Source: Hymenobacter edaphi
GTDB taxonomy: Bacteria > Bacteroidota > Bacteroidia > Cytophagales > Hymenobacteraceae
Length of the DNA stretch: 64,000 nt
Assembly (NCBI RefSeq): GCF_003258365.1
Contig: NZ_QHKM01000001.1
Location: 930,001 to 994,000 of the forward strand
Direction of reading: 5' to 3'
In this document: one piece after another, positions 8,712 through 46,329 of the stretch
How positions within the stretch are numbered: position 1 is the stretch's first letter
How the letters are laid out: every line of letters begins with the position of its first letter
Program-made: the position numbers and the translations under genes
The notes under the pieces: generated by a model
What the model was told of the DNA's origin: nothing
Databases searched by the model: none
What the model saw: only the letters and a program-made list of their open reading frames with translations

Positions 8712-9524
8712 ATGAGAGGCAGCCTGCGTTACATCATAGCCCTGCTGGTAGCAGGGTTTTCCTTCATCACCTACTACTGCAACCGGCAGACCAACCCCGT
8801 GACGGGCGAGGTGCAGCACGTGAGCATGACCGCCGAGCAGGAAATAGCGCTGGGGCTGCAGGCCGCGCCCCAAATGGCCCAGCAGTACGGCGGATTGCAC
8901 CCGGATCAGCGGGCCCAGGTCGAGGTGGACCGCATCGGGCAGCAGCTGGTGCAGTCGTCGGGCGCCACCAAGTCGCCCTACAAGTTCGACTTTCACCTGC
9001 TGGCGGATGAAAACACCATCAACGCCTTTGCCCTGCCGGGCGGGCAGGTGTTCATCACTGCCGGGCTGCTGAAAAACCTGAAGACCGAAGGCCAGGTGGC
9101 CGGGGTGCTGGGCCACGAAATCGGCCACGTCATCGGGCGACACTCGGCCGAGCAGCTGGCCAAGTCGCGGCTGACGCAGGGCCTGGCCGGCGCGGCCGGC
9201 ATTGCCGCCTACGACCCCGACCGCCCGGGCGGCTCGATAGCCAATGCGGCGGTGGCCGCGGCCATTGCCAAAGTCGTCAGCCTGCGCTTCGGCCGCGAAG
9301 ACGAGCTGGAGGCCGACCGCGACGCGGTGCAGTACACCGCCGAGGCCGGCTACGACCCGCGCGCCATGATTCAGGTGATGCAGATTCTGCAGCAGGCCGG
9401 CGGCCGCAGCGGTGGCCCCGAGTTCCTGAGCACCCACCCCGACCCGGGCAACCGCATCGGGGTGCTGGAGCGCCAGATCCAGGAGGAATTCCCCAACGGC
9501 GTGCCCAGCAACCTCAAGCCGTAA
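8712..9524 (+). CDS. M48 family metalloprotease
   Basis: A 270-residue zinc protease. An N-terminal hydrophobic segment (about residues 7-21) anchors or exports it. The catalytic HEIGH motif starts at residue 135, preceded by NAFALPGGQVFITAGLL, the family's usual substrate-strand region. The third zinc ligand lies in EDELEADRDAV, and FLSTHPDPGNRI is the usual C-terminal landmark. Such proteins (BepA/LoiP-like) degrade misassembled envelope proteins. The ATG at 8712 is chosen because the hydrophobic leader starts there. A second M48 protein is encoded at 25073-25897, so the strain has at least two. Confidence 0.92.
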   Translation: MRGSLRYIIALLVAGFSFITYYCNRQTNPVTGEVQHVSMTAEQEIALGLQAAPQMAQQYGGLHPDQRAQVEVDRIGQQLVQSSGATKSPYKFDFHLLADENTINAFALPGGQVFITAGLLKNLKTEGQVAGVLGHEIGHVIGRHSAEQLAKSRLTQGLAGAAGIAAYDPDRPGGSIANAAVAAAIAKVVSLRFGREDELEADRDAVQYTAEAGYDPRAMIQVMQILQQAGGRSGGPEFLSTHPDPGNRIGVLERQIQEEFPNGVPSNLKP

Positions 9525-9575
9525 GCCCCGGCCGGCGCTGGCCGCCGCCCGCTCCGTATTTCCGGCAACCGACAG

Positions 9576-9604
9576 CGGCCGAAGCTCCTGCTTCGGCCGT
9601 TTTG
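9576..9604 (+). terminator. Intrinsic terminator after M48 gene
   Basis: Stem CGGCCGAAG/CTTCGGCCG with a six-base loop followed by TTTTGG. Confidence 0.65.
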
Positions 9605-9669
9605 GCGTCCGGTGCGTTATTGTCCTTACTTTCCTCCCCGGGCGGGATTGCCGCCGCCCCCTGCTCTCC

Positions 9670-10578
9670 ATGCCTACTGCCCCTTCCATATTGCGCCGGC
9701 TGCTGTTTGTGATGAACCCGATTTCGGGCGACATCGACAAAGCCAGCGTGCAAGAGCTGATCGAAACCATCTGCGCCGAGCGCGGCCGCACGGCGCATTT
9801 CTACGAAACCAGCGGCGAGGACGACCTCAACCGCCTGCGCGCCTACCTGCAGCAGCACCCGCAGGACGCCGTGTTTGCCGCCGGCGGCGACGGCACCGTG
9901 AACCTGGTGGCGCAGGCCCTCAGCGACACCGAGCTGCCGCTGGGCATCGTGCCGCTGGGCTCGGGCAACGGCCTGTCGAAGGATTTGGGCATTCCGCAGG
10001 ACGTGGAAGAGGCGCTGCAGCTGATCTGGCAGCACGAGGTGCTGCGCGTCGATACCTTGATGGTGAGCGGCCACTTCACGGCTCACCTGGCCGATCTGGG
10101 CTTCAATGCGCTGATTGTGGAACGGTTTGCCGAAGGCGACACCCGCGGGCCCGGCGCCTACGTGCGCATTGCCCTGCAGGAATACATGCGCTACCAGCCC
10201 GCCCGCTACCGCGTGGTGACGGATAGCGAAACCTGGGAAGGCGAGGCGTTTATGCTCACCGTGGCCAACGCCCGCACTTTCGGCAGCAACGTGGTCATCA
10301 ACCCCGCCAGCCGCATGGACGACGGCCGCTTCGAGGTGTGCGTCATCGAGCCGTTTCCGGCCACGGCGGCCCCCGGCATCCTCTACCAGCTCTACACCGA
10401 CGGCTTCGACGAATCGGCGTACACGCGGCGGCTGCAGTGCCGCTGGGTGCGCATCGAGGTGGTGGGCGAAACGGCGGTGCGCGTGCAGGTCGACGGGGAG
10501 CCGCTGCACCTGCCCACGCCGGTGGAAGCCACGATTAACCCGCAGAACCTGCGGGTGCTGGTGCCGGCGGCGGGGTAG
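9670..10578 (+). CDS. Diacylglycerol kinase family lipid kinase
   Basis: A 302-residue soluble lipid kinase of the DagK/YegS/BmrU group. It opens with LLFVMNPISGDIDK, the family's NPxSG nucleotide-binding strand. It carries the glycine-rich AAGGDGTVN (about residues 70-78) and PLGSGNGLSKDLGIP, both characteristic, and a C-terminal beta-sandwich domain with NPASRMDDGRFEVCVIE. It phosphorylates a lipid alcohol (diacylglycerol or sphingoid base) at the inner membrane; which one cannot be told from sequence. Its last 44 bases overlap the 3' end of the convergent phosphoesterase gene. Confidence 0.92.
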   Translation: MPTAPSILRRLLFVMNPISGDIDKASVQELIETICAERGRTAHFYETSGEDDLNRLRAYLQQHPQDAVFAAGGDGTVNLVAQALSDTELPLGIVPLGSGNGLSKDLGIPQDVEEALQLIWQHEVLRVDTLMVSGHFTAHLADLGFNALIVERFAEGDTRGPGAYVRIALQEYMRYQPARYRVVTDSETWEGEAFMLTVANARTFGSNVVINPASRMDDGRFEVCVIEPFPATAAPGILYQLYTDGFDESAYTRRLQCRWVRIEVVGETAVRVQVDGEPLHLPTPVEATINPQNLRVLVPAAG

Positions 10579-35788: not shown

Positions 35789-37738
35789 ATGGCTGAGCAG
35801 CAACTGCCTCTCGAAAGCGCGCAAACCGCCCCCGTCGACCACGGCTACAACGAGGATTCCATCCGTTCGTTGGACTGGCGGGAGCATATCCGCCTGCGCC
35901 CGGGCATGTACATCGGCAAGCTGGGCGACGGCAGCTCGCCCGACGACGGCATTTACATCCTGGTCAAGGAGGTCATCGACAACTCCATCGACGAGCACAT
36001 GATGGGCTACGGCCGCACCATCGAGGTCAAAATCACCGAGCAGCGCGTGACCGTGCGCGACTACGGCCGCGGCATTCCGCTGGGCAAGGTGGTCGACGTG
36101 GTCAGCAAAATCAACACCGGCGGCAAGTACGACTCGAAGGTGTTTCAGAAGTCGGTGGGGCTGAACGGGGTGGGTACCAAGGCGGTGAATGCCCTGAGCA
36201 CCAACTTCGTGGTGCAGAGCGTGCGCGAGGGCATGATGAAGTCGGCCGAGTTTCAGGGCGGCAAGCTCATCAGCGACCCGAAACCCGTCAAGACCTCCCA
36301 GCGCAACGGGACGATGATGGCCTTCGAGCCCGACCCGACCATCTTCCGCAACTACCGCTTCATCCCGGATTTCCTGGAAAGCCAGTTCTGGAACTACGCC
36401 TACCTGAACGCGGGCCTCACCATCAACTTCAACGGCCAGAAGTTTCACTCCGAAAACGGCCTGCGCGACCTGCTGGAGCGCAAAACCGACCCCGAGGCCA
36501 TCCGCTACCCGGTCATTCACCTCAAGGGCACGGACATCGAAATGGCCCTGACCCACGGCAACGACTACGGCGAGGAGTACTACTCCTTCGTCAACGGGCA
36601 GTACACCACCCAGGGCGGCACCCACCTGGCGGCCTTCCGCGAGGGCATCGTGAAAACCCTGCGCGAGTTCTACAAGAAGGACTACGACGCCACCGACATC
36701 CGCGCCAGCATCGTGGGCGCCATTGCCATCCGGGTGCAGGAGCCCGTGTTCGAGTCGCAGACCAAGACCAAGCTGGGCTCGATTACGATGGAGCCCGAGG
36801 GCGCCGTGACGGTGCGCAACTTCGTGGTCGACTTCGTGAAGGAGCACCTCGACAACTACCTGCACAAAAACCCCGAGGCGGCCGAGGGCCTCAAGCGCCG
36901 CATCGAGCAGAGCGAGCGGGAGCGGAAGGACATGGCCGGCGTGAAAAAGCTGGCCAACCAGCGCGCCAAAAAAGCCAGCCTGCACAACCGCAAGCTGCGC
37001 GACTGCCGCTTCCACTTCGGCGAGGGCAAGACCCTGGACAAGGAAGGCCTGACCACCCTGTTCATCACCGAGGGCGACTCCGCCTCGGGCTCCATCACCA
37101 AGAGCCGCAACGTGGAGCTGGAGGCCGTGTTCAGCCTGCGCGGCAAGCCGCTGAACTGCTTCGGGATGAAAAAGAAAATCGTCTACGAAAACGAGGAGCT
37201 GAACCTGCTGCAGCACGCGCTGAACATCGAGGAAGGCCTGGAAGGGCTGCGCTACAACCGCGTGGTCATTGCCACCGACGCCGACGTGGACGGCATGCAC
37301 ATTCGCCTGCTTCTGCTCACCTTCTTCCTGCAGTTCTTCCCCGACCTGGTGCGCAACGGCCACGTCTACATCCTGGAAACCCCGCTGTTCCGGGTGCGCA
37401 ACAAGAAGCAGACGATTTACTGCTACGACGAGCGCGAAAAGCAGGCCGCCATCCGCAAGCTGGGCCGCAACCCGGAAATCACCCGCTTCAAGGGCCTGGG
37501 CGAAATCAGCCCCGACGAGTTCGGCAAGTTCATCGGCGACAACATCCGCCTGGAGCCGGTGATTCTGCAGTCGGACCGCTCCATCCAGAAGCTGCTGACT
37601 TACTACATGGGCAAAAACACGCCCGCCCGCCAGGAATTCATCATCGACCACCTGCGCATCGAGAAGGACTTGGTGACTTCCGATACGCTGCCCGCCAGCG
37701 AAACCATCGTGCCCGCCGCCGAGGCGGAACTGGTGTAA
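35789..37738 (+). CDS. parE: DNA topoisomerase IV subunit B
   Basis: A 649-residue ATPase subunit of the type IIA enzyme that decatenates chromosomes. GHKL ATPase: [29 protein letters not shown] (catalytic Glu), [24 protein letters not shown]. The TOPRIM domain starts at [16 protein letters not shown] (Glu428), with [10 protein letters not shown] holding the metal-binding Asp pair and YKGLGE-type [12 protein letters not shown] afterwards. ParE identity, not GyrB, rests on length, absence of the GyrB insertion and the ParE-like Bacteroidota form. Its partner parC lies 5.6 kb downstream; the kai operon lies between them. Confidence 0.93.
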
Positions 37739-38133: not shown

Positions 38134-38253
38134 ACAGCCCCCGTGCCGATAAAACCGTACCTTGCCCGTCTGACTGCTTCCGAAACCGGTCCTTTAGCCG
38201 TTCGTAAAGCCGTCGAGCCGCCACCTTACCTTGCCGTTACCGCACACCGCCGT

Positions 38254-39984
38254 ATGACCGCTGCCCCCGCGCTGCCCCAGTTACCCAAAGCCCCCACGGG
38301 CATCGATGGGCTCGATGAAATTACCAACGGCGGCCTGCCCCTGGGCCGGCCCACCCTGCTCTGCGGCTCGGCCGGCTGCGGCAAGACGCTGATGAGCGTG
38401 GAGTTCCTGGTGCGCGGCATCCAGGAGTTCGACGAGCCAGGCGTGCTGATGGCCTTCGAGGAAACCGCCGACGAGCTGGCCGCCAACGTCACCTCCCTGG
38501 GCTTCGACCTCAAGCAGCTGGTGGCCGACAAGAAGCTGCGCCTCGACCACGTCCACGTCGACCGCTCCGAAATCGAGGAAACCGGCGAGTACGACCTGGA
38601 AGGCCTGTTTATCCGCCTGGGCTACGCCATCGACTCCATCGGGGCCAAGCGCGTGGTGCTCGATACCATTGAGTCGTTGTTTTCGGGCTTCTCCAACCAG
38701 GCCGTGCTCCGCTCCGAAATCCGCCGGCTGTTTCGCTGGCTGAAGGACAAGGGCGTCACCACCATCATCACCGCCGAGCGGGGCGAGGGCAGCCTGACGC
38801 GGCAGGGGCTGGAAGAGTACGTGTCGGACTGCGTGATTCTGCTCGACAACCGGGTTATCAACCAGATTACCACCCGCCGCCTGCGCATCGTGAAGTACCG
38901 CGGCAGCATCCACGGCACCAACGAGTACCCCTACCTGATTACCGAGGACGGCATTTCGGTGCTGCCCGTGACGAGCCTGAAGCTGGAGCACGAGGTATCC
39001 AACGAGGTGGTGTCGACGGGCGTGCCGGGGCTGGACGAGATGTTCAAGAGCCGCGGGCTGTACCGCGGCAGCAGCACGCTCATCACCGGCACGGCGGGCA
39101 CGGCCAAGACCACGCTGGCCGCGGCCTTCAGCGCCGAGTCCTGCCGCCGCGGCGAGCGGTGCCTCTATTTCGCCTTCGAGGAGTCGCCGCAGCAGCTGAT
39201 TCGCAACATGCAGTCGGTGGGCATGGATCTGCAGCCCTTCGTGGAGCAGGGGCTGCTGCACATCGAAGCCTCGCGGCCCACGCTCAACGGGCTGGAGCAG
39301 CACCTGGTCACCATTCACAAGCTCATCGGCCAGTACCAGCCCCGCACCGTCGTCATCGACCCGATCAGCAACCTGGTGTCGGTGGGCAGCATCACGGAGG
39401 TGCGCGGCATGCTCACGCGCCTGATCGATTACCTGAAGGTGCAGGGCGTGACGGCCCTGTTTACGGCCCTGGTGAGCGGGCGCAACGCCAACCAGGAAAT
39501 GACCGAAGAGGGCGTCTCGTCGCTGGTGGATACCTGGATTCACGTGCGCGACCTGGAGGGCATCGGCGAGCGGAACCGCGGCGTGAGCATCCTCAAGGCC
39601 CGCGGTATGGCCCACTCCAACCAAGTGCGCGAGTTTCTGGTCACCGAGGAGGGCATCCGCCTGCTCGACGTGGTCATCGGCCCGGGCGGCATCGTGACGG
39701 GCGCCAGCCGCCACACCCAGTACCTGCAGGAGCAGGCCGCCTCGCTGGCCGCCGAGCAGGAAATCGAGCGGCGCGAGCGGGAGCTGGAGCGCAAGCGCCG
39801 GGTGCTGGAGGCCACCATTGCCAACCTGCGCACCGAGTTCGAATCGGTGGAGGAGGAGCTGCGCCGCAGCAATCAGGAGGAAGAGCAGCGCCACCAGGAA
39901 CTTGCCCAGGCCCGCCAGCAGATTGCGGCCGGGCACAACGCCCGCCCGGGTGCTCATTCGGCCGCCGCGCCCGCAAATTCGTAA
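38254..39984 (+). CDS. kaiC: KaiC-like double ATPase with C-terminal coiled coil
   Basis: A 576-residue protein with two RecA-like KaiC domains. CI: Walker A GSAGCGKT (38-45), catalytic FEE (68-70). CII: Walker A GTAGTAKT (279-286), FEE (308-310). The segment MTEEGVSSLVDTW (416-428) aligns with the cyanobacterial ITDSHISTITDT phosphorylation loop, giving T417, S422 and S423 as counterparts of T426, S431 and T432, so autophosphorylation is plausible. After the CII core (about 475) a charged coiled coil (about 490-560) replaces the short KaiA-binding tail. No kaiA is present. It heads a five-gene operon (next start 9 bases on). The ATG at 38254 is preferred to a GTG 37 codons upstream. Confidence 0.93.
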   Translation: MTAAPALPQLPKAPTGIDGLDEITNGGLPLGRPTLLCGSAGCGKTLMSVEFLVRGIQEFDEPGVLMAFEETADELAANVTSLGFDLKQLVADKKLRLDHVHVDRSEIEETGEYDLEGLFIRLGYAIDSIGAKRVVLDTIESLFSGFSNQAVLRSEIRRLFRWLKDKGVTTIITAERGEGSLTRQGLEEYVSDCVILLDNRVINQITTRRLRIVKYRGSIHGTNEYPYLITEDGISVLPVTSLKLEHEVSNEVVSTGVPGLDEMFKSRGLYRGSSTLITGTAGTAKTTLAAAFSAESCRRGERCLYFAFEESPQQLIRNMQSVGMDLQPFVEQGLLHIEASRPTLNGLEQHLVTIHKLIGQYQPRTVVIDPISNLVSVGSITEVRGMLTRLIDYLKVQGVTALFTALVSGRNANQEMTEEGVSSLVDTWIHVRDLEGIGERNRGVSILKARGMAHSNQVREFLVTEEGIRLLDVVIGPGGIVTGASRHTQYLQEQAASLAAEQEIERRERELERKRRVLEATIANLRTEFESVEEELRRSNQEEEQRHQELAQARQQIAAGHNARPGAHSAAAPANS

Positions 39985-39993
39985 CAGGCCGGT

Positions 39994-40317
39994 ATGCAGA
40001 TGACACTGGCCCCAACTCAATCAAGCATGGACGAGGAAACCTGGGAACTGCGCCTGTACGTGGCTGGCCAGACCGTGAAATCCGTTACCGCGCTGGCCAA
40101 CCTCAAAAAGTATTGCGAGGAGCACCTGTCCGGGCGTTACCGGCTGGAAGTCATCGACCTGCTGCAACACCCCCAGCTGGCCGAAGGGGACCAGATTCTG
40201 GCCATTCCCACGCTGGTGCGTAAGGTGCCGTCGCCCATCCGCAAAATCATCGGCGACCTGTCGAACCAGGAGCGGGTGCTGGTGGGCCTCGACATCCGCT
40301 CGGGGCTGCATAAGTAA
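39994..40317 (+). CDS. kaiB: KaiB, canonical type
   Basis: A 107-residue thioredoxin-like fold-switch protein. From [16 protein letters not shown] onward it follows cyanobacterial KaiB closely: [65 protein letters not shown]. KaiB binds the ADP state of the KaiC CI ring after refolding; the conserved C-terminal half makes that plausible here. Two starts are possible, ATG 39994 and ATG 40027; the second would begin at the conserved part. It lies between kaiC (9 bases) and a second kaiB (11 bases). Confidence 0.92.
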
Positions 40318-40328
40318 GCCCAGGCCCT

Positions 40329-40658
40329 ATGGAACCAGAGCAAGCCCCGGCTACCACGGGCCCGGAGTACGTGCTGCATCTCTTCATCACCGGCGCCACC
40401 CCCAACTCCACCCAGGCGGTGCGCAACCTGCAGGACATCTGCGAGCGGTACCTGCCGGGGCGCGTTGAGCTGCAGATTGTGGATATCTACCAACAACCCG
40501 AGCTGGCCCGGTCCGAGCGCATCGTGGCCGCCCCCACGCTCATCAAGAAGCAGCCCGGCCTGGTGCGCTTCCTGGTCGGCGACCTGTCGGACCGCCGCCG
40601 GGTGCTGTCCCTGCTCGGCCTCACGCCCGACCCCCTCGACCCCTACCTCCATGACTGA
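40329..40658 (+). CDS. KaiB-like protein, divergent second copy
   Basis: A 109-residue KaiB homologue with the same frame (LHLFITGATPNSTQAVRNLQDICERYLPGRVELQIVDIYQQPELA, then APTLIKKQPGLVRFLVGDLSDRRRVLSLLGL). Compared with the first copy it has FITG for YVAG, QIVD for EVID, RSERIVAAPTL for DQILAIPTL, and no PPxR before the GDLS motif. This is the KaiB2/KaiB3-like kind often found as a second gene in non-cyanobacterial Kai loci. It may act on the histidine kinase next to it and not on KaiC; this is inference. Its last 8 bases overlap the kinase gene. Confidence 0.88.
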   Translation: MEPEQAPATTGPEYVLHLFITGATPNSTQAVRNLQDICERYLPGRVELQIVDIYQQPELARSERIVAAPTLIKKQPGLVRFLVGDLSDRRRVLSLLGLTPDPLDPYLHD

Positions 40659-42366
40659 CCGCGGGCCGCGTAGCGCCGCGGCGCTGGCGCAGGAAAACGA
40701 GGCGCTGCGCCACCGGCTGCAGGAAGCCGAAGACCTCATCACGGCCATTCGCACCGGCACCATCGATGCGCTGGCCGTGCAGGCGCCCGAAGGCCCGCGC
40801 ATCTTCACCCTCGAAGGCGCCGACCAGAGCTACCGCAACCTCATCGAGCAGATGAGCGAGGGCGCGCTGCTGCTCAGCCAGAACGGCACCGTGCTCTACT
40901 GCAACGCCTGCCTGGCCGGCATGGTGAAGGCCCCGCTGCAGAGCATGATGGGCGTTTCGTTCCACGACTTTGTGCCCCTCGATTACCAGGAATACTGGCT
41001 GGAGCTGCTGAGCACGGCCTGGACGGGCAAAAGCAAGGGCGAAATGCCGTTGCAAGCCACCGACGGGCACCAGCACCCCGTGGCCCTGGCCCTGAACGTG
41101 CTGGTGTTCAACCAGACGCAGGTGCTGGCCGTCATCGTGACGGATGTATCGGAGCAGCGCGAAATCAGCGCCATTCGGGCGCGGGTATCCGAGCAGAACA
41201 CCCTGCTGGAACGCCAGCAGGAGACGCTGCGCACCCAGGCCCAGGCCCAGCGCGCCGCCGAGCAGACCGCCGCCGAAACCAGCCGCATCCTGGAGGGCAT
41301 GCCGCACATTGCCTGGACGGCCAGCCCCGCCGGCCTCAACACCTACCTCAACCGCCGCTGGTTTGAGTACACCGGCCACCACGCGCAGGCCGACCCCGCG
41401 CACAGCTTCAGCGCCCTCATCCACCCCGACGACCTGCCGGGTGCGGCGCAGCGCTGGCGCGAAGCCATTGCAAGCGGCGAAGCGCTGGAAATCGAGTGCC
41501 GCATCCGCAGCGCCACCGGCGAGTTTCGCTGGATGCTGGGCCGGGCCCTGCCCTCGCGCAACGAGCAGGGCGAGATTATCCAGTGGATCGGGGCCTATAC
41601 CGACATCCACGAGCACAAAGTCACCCAGGCCCGCGTGGCCGAAGCCCAGGAGCAGCTCCGCGCCAGCAACCAGCAGCTGCTGCGCATCAACCGCGACCTG
41701 GACAACTTCATCTACACCGCCTCCCACGACCTCAAAGCCCCCATCAACAACATCGAGGGCCTGCTCTCGGCGCTGCTCTCCGAACTGCCCGCCGAGCTGG
41801 TGAAGGGGGCCGCCATTCAGCCGCTGGTGGGCATGATGCAGGGGTCGGTGGACCGCTTCAAGCGCACCATCGAGCACCTGACCGAGGTGACGCGCCTGCA
41901 GAAGGAGCACGAGCAGCCCCAGGGCCTGATCGAGCTGGAGCCGGTGGTGCGCGCCGTGATGCTGGACCTGGCGCCGTTGCTGGAGTCTTCGGGGGCGCAG
42001 CTGGACGTGGAGGTGCAGCACTGCGCGCCGGTGTCGTTTTCGGAGAAAAACCTGCGCTCCGTCGTGTACAACCTGCTCAGCAACGCCCTCAAGTACCGCC
42101 ACCCCGCCCGCCCGCTCCGGGTGCGCGTGCGCTGCCACGCCACCGCCGAGTACCAGGTGCTGACCGTGCAGGACAACGGCCTGGGCTTGCAGGTGGCCGG
42201 CAACGCCAAGCTGTTTGCCATGTTTCAGCGCTTTCACGACCACGTCGAGGGCTCGGGCATCGGCCTCTACATGGTCAAGCGCATCATGGAAAACGCCGGC
42301 GGCCGGGTCGAGGTCGAAAGCACGGTCGGTACTGGGGCAACGTTTTCCGTGTACTTCCGCCGCTGA
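40651..42366 (+). CDS. PAS-domain sensor histidine kinase of the kai operon
   Basis: A 571-residue soluble kinase with no membrane segment. Order: N-terminal coiled coil (about 10-45), PAS 1 (60-170), coiled coil (175-210), PAS 2 plus PAC (208-325), HisKA with the phospho-acceptor in YTASHDLKAP (His359), and HATPase_c with LLSNALKYRH (N box), DNGLGL (G1) and GSGIGLYMVKRIMENAGG (G2). It is likely a cytoplasmic sensor. It overlaps the second kaiB by 8 bases, so they are translationally coupled. In cyanobacteria SasA, a KaiB-like-domain kinase, reads KaiC state; here the KaiB-like domain is a separate protein, and this kinase may play that output role. Confidence 0.92.
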   Translation: MTDRGPRSAAALAQENEALRHRLQEAEDLITAIRTGTIDALAVQAPEGPRIFTLEGADQSYRNLIEQMSEGALLLSQNGTVLYCNACLAGMVKAPLQSMMGVSFHDFVPLDYQEYWLELLSTAWTGKSKGEMPLQATDGHQHPVALALNVLVFNQTQVLAVIVTDVSEQREISAIRARVSEQNTLLERQQETLRTQAQAQRAAEQTAAETSRILEGMPHIAWTASPAGLNTYLNRRWFEYTGHHAQADPAHSFSALIHPDDLPGAAQRWREAIASGEALEIECRIRSATGEFRWMLGRALPSRNEQGEIIQWIGAYTDIHEHKVTQARVAEAQEQLRASNQQLLRINRDLDNFIYTASHDLKAPINNIEGLLSALLSELPAELVKGAAIQPLVGMMQGSVDRFKRTIEHLTEVTRLQKEHEQPQGLIELEPVVRAVMLDLAPLLESSGAQLDVEVQHCAPVSFSEKNLRSVVYNLLSNALKYRHPARPLRVRVRCHATAEYQVLTVQDNGLGLQVAGNAKLFAMFQRFHDHVEGSGIGLYMVKRIMENAGGRVEVESTVGTGATFSVYFRR

Positions 42367-42429
42367 ATTCCGTAAGCGTCCCTGCGCGGGTGCCCGACAC
42401 CCGCGGCCCACGCCCATTTTGCCGCTGCA

Positions 42430-42852
42430 ATGCCTCTTCCCCCCTGTATTCTGCTTGTCGACGACGACCAAACCACAAATTACCTTAACCGGCTGCTGCT
42501 GAAGCGCCTGGCCGTGGCCGATGAGTTGTTGACGGCCCAAAACGGGTTGGAGGCTCTGCAGATGCTGCAGGCGCACCACCAGCGCCCGGAGCTGAACGAG
42601 CCGGTGTTGGTGTTTCTGGACGTGAAAATGCCCGTGATGGACGGGTTTGAGTTTTTGCAGGCCTACGAGCAGCTGCCCGCGGCGCACAAAGCCGAAACCG
42701 TCATTGTGATGCTGACTACCTCCCTGCACCCGCAGGACGTGGAGCGCATGCAGCAGCTCAAGATTGCCGGGTTCCTGAACAAGCCCCTGACCAAGGAAAA
42801 AGTCGACGGCGTGCTGCTGCAGCATTTTCAGCACGAGATGCCGGTCGAATAG
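42430..42852 (+). CDS. Single-domain response regulator (Rcp1-like)
   Basis: A 140-residue receiver domain without an output domain. The acidic pocket is DDD at 11-13, the phospho-acceptor is Asp64 in FLDVKMPVMDG, the switch Thr is in MLTTS, and the Lys in FLNKPLT. The N-terminal LLVDDDQTTNYLNRLLLKRL and spacing match the short receivers that pair with PAS kinases in Bacteroidota. It is 63 bases downstream of the kinase gene and the last gene of the operon; it is likely the kinase's partner. It carries no DNA-binding domain, so output must go through protein contact. Confidence 0.92.
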   Translation: MPLPPCILLVDDDQTTNYLNRLLLKRLAVADELLTAQNGLEALQMLQAHHQRPELNEPVLVFLDVKMPVMDGFEFLQAYEQLPAAHKAETVIVMLTTSLHPQDVERMQQLKIAGFLNKPLTKEKVDGVLLQHFQHEMPVE

Positions 42853-42920: not shown

Positions 42921-43344
42921 TAAGAGCAGTCGGTAGGGCCGGGCCGCTGGCCGGGCGAGGCAGCGCGTCGCGTCGTCCACCGGGCTGCGGGCGGCAAATA
43001 AAGCTTGCTAATAGTATTAGTTTTTCCGGGAAGCTGTTTTTGCGCTTTTGCAGCGTGATTTGGTTGTGAGGTTCGGTAATGACTAATTTTTTTAGGAACT
43101 TTATGTGCGCCACCGGGCTTTCGGGGTGTTGTGCTCTGCCCGGCAAACGGTACTTTTGAAGGCCATTGGCGCGGCCTGATCAGTACCGAGGCTGAGCGGG
43201 CGTTGCTGCATTTTCCTGGCTTTTACGTTTCTCTGATGAGTTAACCCCTACGTTTGCGGCCTGCGCACTAATCCCGCGGCAGGCGTGTTTAAAGGAGCCT
43301 TTGGCGGTTCGGCGCCGCCAAGGAGAGGTACAAGAACAATAACC
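42921..43344. other. AT-rich leader region upstream of parC
   Basis: About 420 bases without a gene. An AT-rich stretch (43000-43110) with several T runs precedes the predicted parC promoter at 43129-43158, so the transcript would have a leader of about 180 bases to the GTG at 43345. I see no riboswitch that I recognise. Confidence 0.4.
43129..43158 (+). promoter_or_regulatory. Bacteroidota-type promoter for parC
   Basis: TTG (43129-43131), 19 bases, TACTTTTG (43151-43158): an exact TAnnTTTG box with the preferred spacing. Predicted start near 43165. Confidence 0.5.
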
Positions 43345-46329
43345 GTGGCCCAAGCCACCCCGCGCGTGTCAAACGACAACCACACCCCCTACGAGCAGAA
43401 CCTGAACGGCCAAGACCCCGAGTTGTTCGGCGTCGGGGATACCATCGATTTTGGGGCCGCACCCGCCGCGGCCGATAATGACGAAGCCGCCGCCCCGGAA
43501 GCTGCCCTCGGCCCCGATGGCGAGTTGCTGGCCGAAGCCGACGAGCTGAGCCCCGACGAGGCCGACGCCTCCGACGAGTCGGCCGATGAGCTGGCCCTGG
43601 TCGTGCCGGCCGAGGAAGGCGACTTCCGGCCCGGCGAAACCATCCACGACATCAGCAGCATCGGCGGCATGTACCAGAACTGGTTTCTGGAATACGCCTC
43701 CTACGTGATTCTGGAGCGCGCCGTGCCTGCTATCGAGGATGGCCTCAAGCCCGTGCAGCGCCGCATCCTGCACGCGATGAAGGAAATGGACGACGGCCGC
43801 TTCAACAAGGTGGCCAACGTCATCGGGCAGACCATGCAGTACCACCCGCACGGTGACGCCAGCATCGGCGACGCCATCGTGAACCTGGGTCAGAAGGACC
43901 TGCTGATCGAAACCCAGGGCAACTGGGGCGACGTGCGCACCGGCGACGGCGCTGCCGCGCCCCGCTACATCGAAGCCCGCCTCTCAAAGTTTGCCCTCGA
44001 CGTGGTGTTCAACCCCGACACCACCGAGTGGCAGGCCAGCTACGACGGCCGCAAGCGGGAGCCGGTGACCTTGCCGGTGAAGTTTCCGCTGCTGCTCGCG
44101 CAGGGCATCGAAGGCATTGCCGTAGGCCTCTCGACCAAGATCATGCCCCACAACTTCCGCGAGTTGTGCAAGGCCTCGATTGACGTGCTCAAGGGCCGCG
44201 ACATCATCCTGTACCCGGACTTCCCGACCGGCGGCCTCTGCGACATTTCCAACTACAACGGGGGGCTGCGGGGCGGCAAGCTGCGCCTGCGCGCCACCAT
44301 CGAGAAGGTCGACAAAACCATGCTCATCATCCGCGACGTGCCCTACGGGACCACGACCACCGGCGTGATGGAAAGCATCGTGAAGGCCTCGGAAGCCAAC
44401 AAAATCAAGATCAAGAAGGTGGTGGACAACACCGCCGCCGTGGTCGAAATCCAGGTGCACCTGCCCGCGGGCGTGTCGCCGGACTTGACCATGGACGCGC
44501 TGTACGCCTTCACCGACTGCGAAATCAGCATCTCGCCCAACACCTGCGTCATCATCGACGAGAAGCCGCGCTTCGTGGCGGTGGAGGACATGCTGCGGCT
44601 GAGCACCAGCAAGACGCTGCGCCTGCTGGAGCGCGAGCTGGAAATCCGGCAGGACGAGCTGCAGGAGCGGTGGCATTCGGCCTCGCTGGAGAAAATCTTC
44701 ATCGAAAACCGCATCTACCGCAAGATCGAAGAGTGCGAAACCTGGGAGCAGATTCTGGAAACCATCGACGCCGGGCTGAAAAAGTACGTGCGCATCGACG
44801 GGGAGCGGGAAAAGGCCAATGACACGCGCATCGTGCTGCGCCGCGCCATTACGGAGGAGGATCTGACCCGCCTGACCGAAATCCGCATCAAGCGCATTTC
44901 CAAGTACGACGGCTTCAAAGCCGACGAGTACATTCAGAAGCTGGAAGCCGAGCTGGCCGAAGTGGCCGACAACCTCGCCAACCTCACGCGCTACGCCATC
45001 CGCTACTTCGAGGGCCTGCTCAAGAAATACGGCGACGCGAAGGAGCGCAAAACCGAGCTGCGCACCTTCGACGTGGTGACGGCCCAGAAAGTGGCCGTGG
45101 CCAACCAGAAGCTGTACGTGAACCGGCAGGACGGCTTCGTGGGCCACGGGCTGAAGAAGGACGAGTTCGTGTGCGACTGCTCCGATTTGGACGACATCAT
45201 TGCCATCCGCCGCGACGGCTCGTTCGTGGTGACCCGCATTGCGGAGAAGACCTTCGTGGGCAAGGACCTGCTGCACGTGGGCGTCTACAACAAGAACGAC
45301 GACCGGCTGGTGTACAACATGATCTACGTGGACGGCCCCTCGCAGGTCAGCTACGCCAAGCGTTTCCTGGTGACGGGCATCACCCGCGACAAATCCTACG
45401 ATCTGACGAAGGGCGGGAAGAACTCCAAGGTGCTCTACATGACGGCCAATCCCAATTCGGAGTCGGAAATTGTGTCGGTGCAGCTCTCCGACAAGGCGCC
45501 GGCCCGGGTGAAGCAGTTCGACTTCGACTTTGCCGAGCTGGCCATCAAGGGCAAGGGCTCGATGGGCAACATCGTGACCAAGCAGCCGGTGAAGAAGATT
45601 ACCCAGAAGTCGAAGGGCGACTCCACGCTCGGCGGTCGGGAGGTGTTCTTCGACGAAGTGGTGGGCCGCCTCAACACCGGCGGGCACGGCCGCTTCCTGG
45701 GCACCTTCGATACCGACGACGCGGTGCTGGCCATCTACAAGGACGGCAGCTACGAGCTGACCGCGCCCGACCCGGCCATTCACTTCGTGATGCGCGACCT
45801 GGTGCTGCTGCGCAAGTTCGAGCCCGACACGGTTATCAACGCGGTGTACCTGGAAGGCGAAACCAAGACGCATTTCGTCAAGCGGTTCCGCATCGAGACG
45901 AGCACCTTGGCCAAGAAATTCCTCTTTATTCCCGAAACCAAGGGCACGCATCTGCTGGTGGCTACCTGCGGCGTGGCGCCCGAAATCGAGGTGAAGGTGC
46001 AGAAGGAAAAGAAAGGGGAGAAGCTCGCGGAGCGCCTGCACCTGCACGAGTTCATCGACGTGAAGGGCTGGAAGGCCATGGGCAACAAGCTCAACTACTT
46101 CAAGGTGCTTGGGGTGGAGCTGCTCACCGACGAAGGTCCCGAGCCGGAGCGCAAGGCCCAGGCCAAGCGCAAGGGCCCGGCCATCATTCCGCGCCCCGCG
46201 TCGGCCGCCGCGCCCGAAGACGGCCCGCTGCCCGAGCACGACGGCCCGGTGGAAATTTCGGCCGAGGAAGTGGCGCAGGCCCAGGCCCTGCTGCAGCGCA
46301 AGCCCAAGTCGCAGATGACCCTGTTTTAG
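43345..46329 (+). CDS. parC: DNA topoisomerase IV subunit A, acidic N-terminal extension
   Basis: A protein of about 994 residues, the DNA-cleaving partner of ParE. The conserved part starts at GMYQNWFLEYASYVILERAVPAIEDGLKPVQRRILHAM, the winged-helix domain has APRYIEARLS with catalytic Tyr208, and the rest holds the coiled-coil gate and a beta-pinwheel C-terminal domain. It ends in a basic and Pro/Ala-rich tail (QAKRKGPAIIPRP ... QMTLF). About 105 residues precede the conserved start, rich in Asp and Glu. No ATG is in frame before Met of GMYQ; GTG 43345 (VAQATPRVS) follows AGGAGAGG, and GTG 43285 is the alternative. Confidence 0.9.
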   Translation: MAQATPRVSNDNHTPYEQNLNGQDPELFGVGDTIDFGAAPAAADNDEAAAPEAALGPDGELLAEADELSPDEADASDESADELALVVPAEEGDFRPGETIHDISSIGGMYQNWFLEYASYVILERAVPAIEDGLKPVQRRILHAMKEMDDGRFNKVANVIGQTMQYHPHGDASIGDAIVNLGQKDLLIETQGNWGDVRTGDGAAAPRYIEARLSKFALDVVFNPDTTEWQASYDGRKREPVTLPVKFPLLLAQGIEGIAVGLSTKIMPHNFRELCKASIDVLKGRDIILYPDFPTGGLCDISNYNGGLRGGKLRLRATIEKVDKTMLIIRDVPYGTTTTGVMESIVKASEANKIKIKKVVDNTAAVVEIQVHLPAGVSPDLTMDALYAFTDCEISISPNTCVIIDEKPRFVAVEDMLRLSTSKTLRLLERELEIRQDELQERWHSASLEKIFIENRIYRKIEECETWEQILETIDAGLKKYVRIDGEREKANDTRIVLRRAITEEDLTRLTEIRIKRISKYDGFKADEYIQKLEAELAEVADNLANLTRYAIRYFEGLLKKYGDAKERKTELRTFDVVTAQKVAVANQKLYVNRQDGFVGHGLKKDEFVCDCSDLDDIIAIRRDGSFVVTRIAEKTFVGKDLLHVGVYNKNDDRLVYNMIYVDGPSQVSYAKRFLVTGITRDKSYDLTKGGKNSKVLYMTANPNSESEIVSVQLSDKAPARVKQFDFDFAELAIKGKGSMGNIVTKQPVKKITQKSKGDSTLGGREVFFDEVVGRLNTGGHGRFLGTFDTDDAVLAIYKDGSYELTAPDPAIHFVMRDLVLLRKFEPDTVINAVYLEGETKTHFVKRFRIETSTLAKKFLFIPETKGTHLLVATCGVAPEIEVKVQKEKKGEKLAERLHLHEFIDVKGWKAMGNKLNYFKVLGVELLTDEGPEPERKAQAKRKGPAIIPRPASAAAPEDGPLPEHDGPVEISAEEVAQAQALLQRKPKSQMTLF

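Follow-up and report, generated by a model that had tools for sequence, protein, structure and literature searches.

A KaiA-Free kaiC Operon in Hymenobacter edaphi With Two KaiB Paralogues and a Histidine Kinase Carrying a KaiB-Linked N-Terminal Module

Introduction

How might the state of KaiC reach an output protein in a bacterium outside the cyanobacteria? The question is raised by an operon of Hymenobacter edaphi in the window, by which we mean the whole analysed stretch of 64,000 nucleotides. Here, kaiC is followed by two kaiB genes, a gene for a PAS histidine kinase and a gene for a lone receiver. The initial annotation of this DNA had proposed these five genes, which are borne out by their coordinates and by Pfam, and the intergenic spacings of 9, 11, -8 and 63 nucleotides agree with the gene coordinates. 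It had also described KaiA as missing, and a search of the window's genome (6.04 Mb, 43 contigs, 99.96% complete) with PF07688 gave 0 matches; the S. elongatus positive control was detected. Here, KaiB-I stands for the first of the two kaiB genes and KaiB-II for the second, which is not the Synechocystis numbering.

What the initial annotation overlooked is the kinase's own conserved N-terminal module, which tracks kaiB. We favor, at a probability of roughly one half, a KaiA-free KaiBC switch in which KaiB-II would read KaiC and relay its state to this module. What was computed here is the order of the genes, the presence of two KaiB paralogues, the conservation of the module and its one-way linkage to kaiB, and the range of outputs behind it.

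Conservation of the Gene Order

In the genus, KaiB is found in five of eight genomes, each time as a pair, and 136 of 200 family genomes contain a KaiB match. A first set of loci (L023-L089) comprises part of the KaiB-positive genus, family, order, class and phylum set together with one alphaproteobacterial plasmid. The order kaiC-kaiB-kaiB-module protein holds at all 43 two-KaiB loci of this set, including one with a broken kaiC (L062) and one in which the partner is a 238-residue frame (L074). The five-gene order expected in relatives is thus kept as a four-gene core, from which the receiver is usually missing. Pararhizobium qamdonense has an identical 8-nucleotide overlap of the kaiB-II and kinase genes.

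A wider set consists of the best 80 of 536 confirmed loci from a KaiB-II profile scan of genome contigs, and hence it favors KaiB-II operons. A KaiB pair is present at 72 of the 80 loci, although the second KaiB of L158 is a 63-bit fragment; leaving out the eight loci without a pair and three without downstream DNA gives a set of 69. According to record title and tree label, the wider loci include Bacteroidota, Pseudomonadota, Thermodesulfobacteriota, Myxococcota, Verrucomicrobiota, Acidobacteriota, Planctomycetota, Chloroflexota, Gemmatimonadota and Bacillota as well as the archaea Methanoculleus, Methanoperedens and Methanomassiliicoccaceae. Many are metagenome bins, and the loci in all counts share ancestry and are not independent. 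The automatic start codon of the effector lies at most 80 nucleotides past the kaiB-II stop in 66/69 loci. In two Methanoculleus loci (L133, L135), kaiC is located 3' of the kinase gene rather than 5'.

The genes are therefore not scattered; their order recurs across phyla, which rules out a chance or purely local gene cluster and sustains the earlier proposal of a conserved KaiC-to-kinase operon without KaiA. One scan of viral contigs returned no relative of the kai cluster.

Two KaiB Paralogues

All 44 first-position KaiBs in a tree of 108 KaiBs fall into one group of 51 rows (96/87) with zero second-position copies. In a 200-row tree of bacterial and archaeal KaiBs, all 85 first-position copies fall into a group of 92 (Shimodaira-Hasegawa approximate likelihood ratio test, SH-aLRT, 95) free of second-position KaiBs; of the 85 second-position copies, 83 fall into its sister group of 96 (SH-aLRT 90) and two are long-branched. 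As the tool warned, the number of columns is small for the number of rows in both trees. This split points to KaiB-I and KaiB-II as separate paralogues, and from it the duplication is probably old, with both copies kept. The KaiB of Rhodobacter sphaeroides is type I in the tree, and the window's KaiB-I matches chain M of 8FWJ with an E-value of 8e-29. KaiB-II evolves faster, with 94, 78 and 83% identity to the sister loci versus 95, 91 and 90% for KaiB-I.

By sequence, KaiB-II is somewhat nearer to the SasA sensor domain than KaiB-I. The SasA N-terminal domain 1T4Y matches KaiB-II with E 3.7e-5 and leaves KaiB-I unmatched at E 1; for 6X61 the values are 0.028 and 0.39, and the SasA family model scores 33.2 bits for KaiB-II versus 26.0 for KaiB-I. 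The earlier reading is partly right, and its proposal of a separate KaiB linked to the kinase is supported: the KaiB-II gene adjoins the kinase gene, encodes a distinct paralogue nearer to the SasA sensor and is kept with the kinase at L056 and L060. These two loci contain kaiC, KaiB-II and the kinase and no KaiB-I frame was found (remnants were not sought), an apparent loss of the first KaiB. L155 has three KaiBs, one before and two after kaiC, of which two are type I and one is type II. L037 has the usual pair and a third KaiB-like frame (74 bits) on the opposite strand at 9390-9737. The KaiBs of Hymenobacter plasmids fall among the KaiB-II rows of family f1 in the 108-KaiB tree.

The KaiB-Linked Module

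An 84-residue module forms the N-terminus of 68 of the 69 downstream proteins and of the window kinase, where it scores 112 bits; the lone exception among the 69 is a Methanoperedens locus (L138). Its core consensus is LxxExxELRxRLxEAEETLxAIRxGEVDALVVxGxxGxQIFTLxxADxPYRxLxExMxEGA. In 15 scanned module proteins no Pfam match starts before residue 52, and among 60 of 86 solved chains none starts before profile position 57, the start of the PAS fold. A module protein is modelled with a 27-residue helix, a β-hairpin (residues 40-53), a PAS domain and a signalling helix (predicted local distance difference test, pLDDT, 92), and in fold and sequence it is matched by PAS and LOV sensors, DosP and FixL among them. 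The proteins behind KaiB-II vary in their output: ten effectors checked with Pfam comprise three GGDEF-EAL proteins, two HWE kinases, one HisKA_2 kinase and four PAS-only proteins, and HisKA kinases are the effectors at L085 and L105.

The module was then followed through genomes and plasmids. In a survey of 789 genomes, at most 16 module and 13 KaiB candidates were scored per genome, so that further copies may be missed; all candidates were scored in the searches of family genomes (120), named genomes (12) and plasmids. Of the 392 Bacteroidota genomes, 29 have the module, in a single copy each, and all 29 are among the 40 KaiB-positive ones. Among 397 Pseudomonadota genomes (the phylum of Pseudohoeflea, G588) it is found in 12; the 11 near-complete copies are all within the 33 KaiB-positive genomes, and the KaiB-negative G707 has a 24-bit match to the first 27 module positions only, which is not counted as near-complete. 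From profile end to profile start, all 40 near-complete copies lie within 300 nucleotides downstream of kaiB and 38 of them within 100.

The other searches gave a similar picture. The module occurs in 45 of the 120 family genomes, once each, and also in 11 of the 12 named genomes, one of which has an extra 26-bit partial match; in Methyloversatilis only the first 47 module positions are matched. Among plasmids (72,556 records), the module plus PAS is found in 13 records; these all belong to the 16 KaiB-positive records and have kaiB less than 100 nucleotides upstream, and nine are Cereibacter sphaeroides strains. The module is thus usually present in one copy per genome, directly behind kaiB. 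Methanoculleus sediminis (L136) has two module proteins about 3.1 kb apart at its kai locus, the second on the opposite strand.

KaiC and the Rhodobacter sphaeroides System

The best solved match of the window KaiC is the KaiA-free R. sphaeroides KaiC (8DBA, E 2e-187, residues 10-553), and the alignment runs through the C-terminal coiled coil. The alignments with the next different solved protein, 8ZN5 (E 1e-111), and with cyanobacterial KaiC, which comes after it (E about 1e-98), end at residues 483 and 484, respectively. From TEEGIRLLD on, the tail of the window KaiC has 113 residues, against a median of 111 in a 129-row KaiC alignment of all loci. Both Walker A motifs and both catalytic Glu pairs are kept, and the Ser-Ser phospho-dyad lies in EEGVSSLVDTW; 117 of the 129 rows have the dyad. 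In the CII Walker A motif (residues 279-286, GTAGTAKT), Ala replaces the usual P-loop Gly, as it does in 33 of the 129 rows, 30 of them from the window's family.

Because KaiC matches the KaiA-free R. sphaeroides protein through the tail, the operon is of the Rhodobacter KaiBC type, with an extra KaiB. According to the available part of the work on the R. sphaeroides system, its KaiC forms a coil-joined double hexamer and autophosphorylates without KaiA, and KaiB-dependent dephosphorylation together with a state set by the ATP/ADP ratio makes it an hourglass (Pitsawong et al., 2023, PMC10076222). By its anatomy, the window KaiC should work in a similar way.

The two systems (8DBA, 8FWI and 8FWJ for R. 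sphaeroides) share the coiled-coil tail of KaiC, the Ser-Ser dyad, the lack of KaiA, kaiC followed by kaiB and, after kaiB, a PAS kinase with the same N-terminal module (71 bits). Unlike the window, however, R. sphaeroides has a single, type I KaiB, its kinase is of the HWE rather than the HisKA type with a decayed hairpin half of the module, and no annotated receiver lies within the 12 kb shown. Since its two KaiBs belong to separate groups, the window operon is, by sequence, a variant of this type rather than the same system.

Cyanobacterial KaiABC with its SasA-RpaA output likewise joins KaiC to a KaiB-like protein and a histidine kinase within a single pathway. In SasA, however, the KaiB-like domain is fused to the kinase, whereas it is a separate gene in the window, where KaiA is absent, so that the operon is not of the KaiABC type. 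The window kinase begins with a different module and has no KaiB domain, which sets it apart from the SasA family, and the window receiver lacks a DNA-binding domain. A KaiB-kinase fusion was sought and found at none of the 80 loci; the longest KaiB-containing frame listed elsewhere has 360 residues (G668). Five loci of the family (L055, L057, L058, L059, L061) have a second, cyanobacterial-like kaiC-kaiB pair with no adjoining kinase, whose KaiC has a short tail and an SP or ST dyad. The module is absent beside these pairs.

A Proposed Relay From KaiC Through KaiB-II

We propose that the products of the operon form a state switch of KaiB and KaiC without KaiA, as in R. sphaeroides; this switch would probably be an hourglass that the ATP/ADP ratio sets. 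The phosphorylation cycle, the binding steps, the direction of the signal and the timing are what we infer. By analogy with R. sphaeroides, KaiC would form double rings via its C-terminal coiled coil and autophosphorylate at the Ser-Ser dyad. KaiB-I would dock on the CI ring and promote dephosphorylation of KaiC, acting as the reset partner. KaiB-II would be an output-specialised duplicate that reads KaiC in its thioredoxin-like state, as the N-terminal domain of SasA does in cyanobacteria. As a free protein made from an overlapping gene, it would then dock on the helix-hairpin-PAS module and set the activity of the kinase, which in the window may pass its phosphate to the lone receiver. The module would thus be a socket on whichever output protein the organism uses.

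In favor of this reading are the alignment of KaiC with the R. sphaeroides protein through the tail, the Ser-Ser dyad, the missing KaiA, the module protein behind the KaiB pairs, the closeness of all near-complete module copies to kaiB in genomes and on plasmids, and the separation of the two KaiBs in the trees. A possible link between module and KaiB-II comes from the module itself. Split at DALVV, it has a helix half and a hairpin half, which were scored by models trained on these loci, as were those that gave the KaiB types. The helix half has mean scores of 45 bits at loci with both KaiBs (n = 116), 38 bits with KaiB-II only (n = 9) and 42 bits with KaiB-I only (n = 11), while the hairpin half scores 52, 43 and 23 bits, respectively; without L080 the KaiB-I-only means are 42 and 20 bits. 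This suggests that the hairpin half of the module serves KaiB-II. The AlphaFold2 model of KaiB-II also fits the proposed relay: it has a β-α-β-α-β-β-α topology, the strand-helix order of fold-switched KaiB, and in the PDB it comes closest to fold-switched KaiB, KaiC-bound KaiB and Legionella Lpp1115; SasA follows at ranks 10 and 15.

Several observations weigh against the proposed relay. Some drop in the hairpin score is expected because the training alignment had no clear KaiB-I-only rows, although training bias alone should have lowered both halves. L080 has a single KaiB that is type I in one tree and type II in the other, and its hairpin half is full (56 bits). The hairpin half is weak (22-26 bits) in three of the nine KaiB-II-only copies (L122, L123, L149) and absent (-1) at L165, which has two KaiBs. 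Distances co-vary with the module at a partial r of 0.30 for KaiB-II versus 0.18 for KaiB-I, an order seen in 81.5% of 200 subsamples; this is too weak to count as proof of contact, and we reject it as such. SasA does not group with KaiB-II, its rows being very long branches outside all KaiB rows. The pLDDT of the KaiB-II model, 73.8, means moderate confidence, and only KaiB-II was modelled, which leaves no contrast with KaiB-I.

Further points against it concern the distribution of the module. KaiB-positive genomes without a near-complete module make up 11 of 40 in Bacteroidota and 22 of 33 in Pseudomonadota, and the module is absent beside the orphan KaiBs L077, L079, L083 and L084 and at the kaiC-kaiB pairs L081 and L082. 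With many KaiBs lacking a module, the link is one-way. The orphan KaiBs, two of them on Hymenobacter plasmids (L083, L084), have no KaiC in the stretch examined; that of L079 lies between two kinase genes and that of L084 between a receiver and a PAS protein.

The facts that fit least well are the PAS-only partners of Bacteroidota and the KaiB-I-only operon of R. sphaeroides. Thirteen of the 69 partners, all from Bacteroidota, have 235-246 residues, the size of the module plus one PAS domain (L092, L095, L097, L100, L101, L106, L121, L131, L134, L137, L139, L140, L145). In the four of the 13 checked with Pfam there is no output domain; a plain kinase-output model does not account for partners of this size. 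KaiB-II, in turn, is not always needed, because the R. sphaeroides module kinase occurs with KaiB-I only.

Alternative Readings

The operon might have no timing role and act as a relay for stress or energy status, as suggested for the Legionella Kai proteins. In the available part of one survey, non-cyanobacterial KaiC2 homologues are linked to the stress response in Legionella (PMC5520375), and some hosts of our loci are methanogens or, judged by name, other probable anaerobes. Against it, neither the two catalytic Glu pairs nor the Ser-Ser dyad have been lost from the window KaiC, and adaptive growth of R. palustris under rhythmic conditions has been linked to its KaiC, as far as the accessible text of two sources goes (PMC5520375; PMC4794148). 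We regard this reading as rather unlikely, and a stress relay and an hourglass are compatible with each other.

More doubtful is that KaiC, or KaiB-I bound to it, reads the module directly, with KaiB-II only a rival of KaiB-I at the CI ring that tunes the timer and leaves the kinase untouched. The operons of R. sphaeroides, Falsirhodobacter and Sinorhizobium, which consist of KaiC, one KaiB-I and a module kinase, would fit such direct reading, as would the helix half, which is equally strong without KaiB-II; moreover, cyanobacterial KaiB and SasA compete for phosphorylated KaiC (PMC6769508, as given in the available part). Yet it is KaiB-II and not KaiB-I that adjoins the kinase, the hairpin half is on average weaker where KaiB-II is missing, and L056 and L060 retain KaiB-II and the kinase with no KaiB-I found. 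Least probable is a kinase on the input side, with PAS domains sensing redox, oxygen or a metabolite and setting KaiC via KaiB-II, as Min (2005) proposed for the R. sphaeroides operon kinase according to excerpts of later papers (PMC5520375; PMC10931921); PAS-only partners without an output domain and the module protein's closest relatives among PAS sensors would suit it, but lone receivers after the kinase in the window and in six of the 80 loci, and GGDEF-EAL enzymes in the kinase's place at some loci, point to output.

We favor the proposed relay through KaiB-II. Its extension to a general, old and unrecognised KaiC and two-KaiB relay of bacteria and archaea, with KaiB-II as messenger, a KaiB-dedicated module, many outputs and the fused SasA as a special case, seems to us to have slightly less than even odds.

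Kinase and Receiver

The window kinase has the H, N, G1 and G2 boxes and the receiver its Asp and Lys; the assignments of His359 (in SHDLKAP) and Asp64 in the initial annotation were correct. The HisKA domain scores 23.7 bits against a Pfam gathering cut-off of 26.9. With a mean Kyte-Doolittle value of 1.80, the most hydrophobic 19-residue stretch of the kinase, starting at residue 144, would exceed the usual membrane cut-off of 1.6; it lies in modelled PAS β-strands, and the kinase is predicted to be soluble.

The annotation had further suggested that the operon could be a complete timer or stress relay from KaiC to a receiver; the receiver does not hold up as part of its core. A receiver gene lies directly 3' of the kinase gene in six of 24 two-KaiB loci of genus g5 and, with the window's receiver as sole query, a lone receiver follows in six of the 80 wider loci. 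The five-gene form thus exists elsewhere but is a minority, and we reject the receiver as a core part. Phosphotransfer from the window kinase to the window receiver is suggested by their adjacency. At L037 a receiver lies past the kinase on the opposite strand.

The Locus in the Window

The features of the locus are listed in Table 1. Pfam recognizes KaiC with two ATPase stretches (3e-116) and the KaiB family twice (2.7e-28 and 6.7e-24); by Pfam and NCBIfam the kinase is a PAS-PAS-HisKA-HATPase protein and the receiver a single Response_reg domain. The window's genome has no KaiB matches other than the two operon copies and, apart from kaiC, the KaiC ATPase family is matched three more times, each time singly and with a lower score (47, 30 and 21 bits). 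Upstream, the kaiC frame stays open as far as a GTG at 38143, and further in-frame ATGs of kaiB-I lie at 40000 and 40027, so that the first two spacings hinge on the choice of start.

Table 1. Coordinates of the Kai operon and neighbouring features in the window.
Feature	Position	Strand	Description
kaiC	38254-39984	+	576 residues; CI and CII RecA-like ATPase domains, C-terminal tail
kaiB-I (first KaiB)	39994-40317	+	107 residues; grouped with R. sphaeroides KaiB
kaiB-II (second KaiB)	40329-40658	+	109 residues; 8-nucleotide overlap with kinase gene
Histidine kinase	40651-42366	+	571 residues; KaiB-linked module, PAS, PAS, HisKA (His359), HATPase_c
N-terminal KaiB-linked module of kinase	40684-40935	+	84 residues: helix, β-hairpin, PAS start
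Core of KaiB-linked module (61 residues)	40684-40866	+	
Receiver (single-domain response regulator)	42430-42852	+	140 residues; phospho-acceptor Asp64, Lys118; accessory, without counterpart in most relatives
Hairpin	42869-42887/42897-42915	+	Perfect 19-bp stem, 9-nucleotide loop, no T-run; possible terminator
parE-like topoisomerase B subunit	35789-37738	+	Upstream neighbour, outside the system
parC-like topoisomerase A subunit	43285-46329	+	Downstream neighbour, outside the system

The hairpin said to close the operon has an exact stem, but it is not called as a terminator and a T-run is absent, and we do not take it for a clear intrinsic terminator. The corresponding position was compared in three sister loci: two bear another hairpin, this one with a T-run, and the third lacks any of 11 or more perfect pairs.

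The operon does lie between parE and parC, as first described; this slot is local and not general to relatives. Among five operon-bearing genus members, four have the operon next to parC and one elsewhere, and in three members without the operon other genes fill the parE-parC slot. We therefore attach no meaning to the insertion, given that the position varies among genus members. In the sister genomes without kai genes (L028, L029, L030), the slot contains a small BLUF-like protein (L029:5646-6107, Pfam BLUF E 3e-28; similar frames in L028 and L030) and a different PAS kinase. The slot is thus occupied by either a light-sensor pair or the Kai operon.

Relation to Earlier Work and Implications

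Operons of kaiC, kaiB and a kinase gene are described for R. sphaeroides, R. palustris and in a 2011 Ramlibacter survey, as far as the available parts of this literature go. In the accessible text of that survey, kaiC-kaiB operons occur with a histidine kinase or a GGDEF/EAL gene, single receivers lie near some kaiC genes, and a KaiB/SasA-like N-terminus is described for kinases of kaiB-less operons (PMC3164672); unlike the window operon, a second KaiB or a shared N-terminal module is not mentioned there. Schmelling et al. (2017, PMC5520375) reported a Bacteroidetes group whose Kai proteins are all KaiB2/KaiC2-like, and the available part of that paper, again unlike the window, mentions no two-kaiB operon. 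The terms "histidine kinase", "SasA" and "operon" do not occur in the text of the R. sphaeroides paper (PMC10076222). Neither a tandem KaiB pair nor a shared N-terminal module came up in the partly accessible Kai literature, and a prior description is possible; no paper was found on a circadian KaiC in Hymenobacter.

How the state of KaiC is put out outside the cyanobacteria is not settled in the accessible part of the literature, and the module with its adjoining KaiB-II is the candidate that we name here. Both are small proteins that can be expressed and tested. The operon of the window exposes what may be a general relay of two KaiBs and a module. If true, KaiBC operons of many phyla, archaea included, could be read by one rule, and clocks or timers of non-photosynthetic microbes would reduce to a question of direct binding and phosphotransfer.

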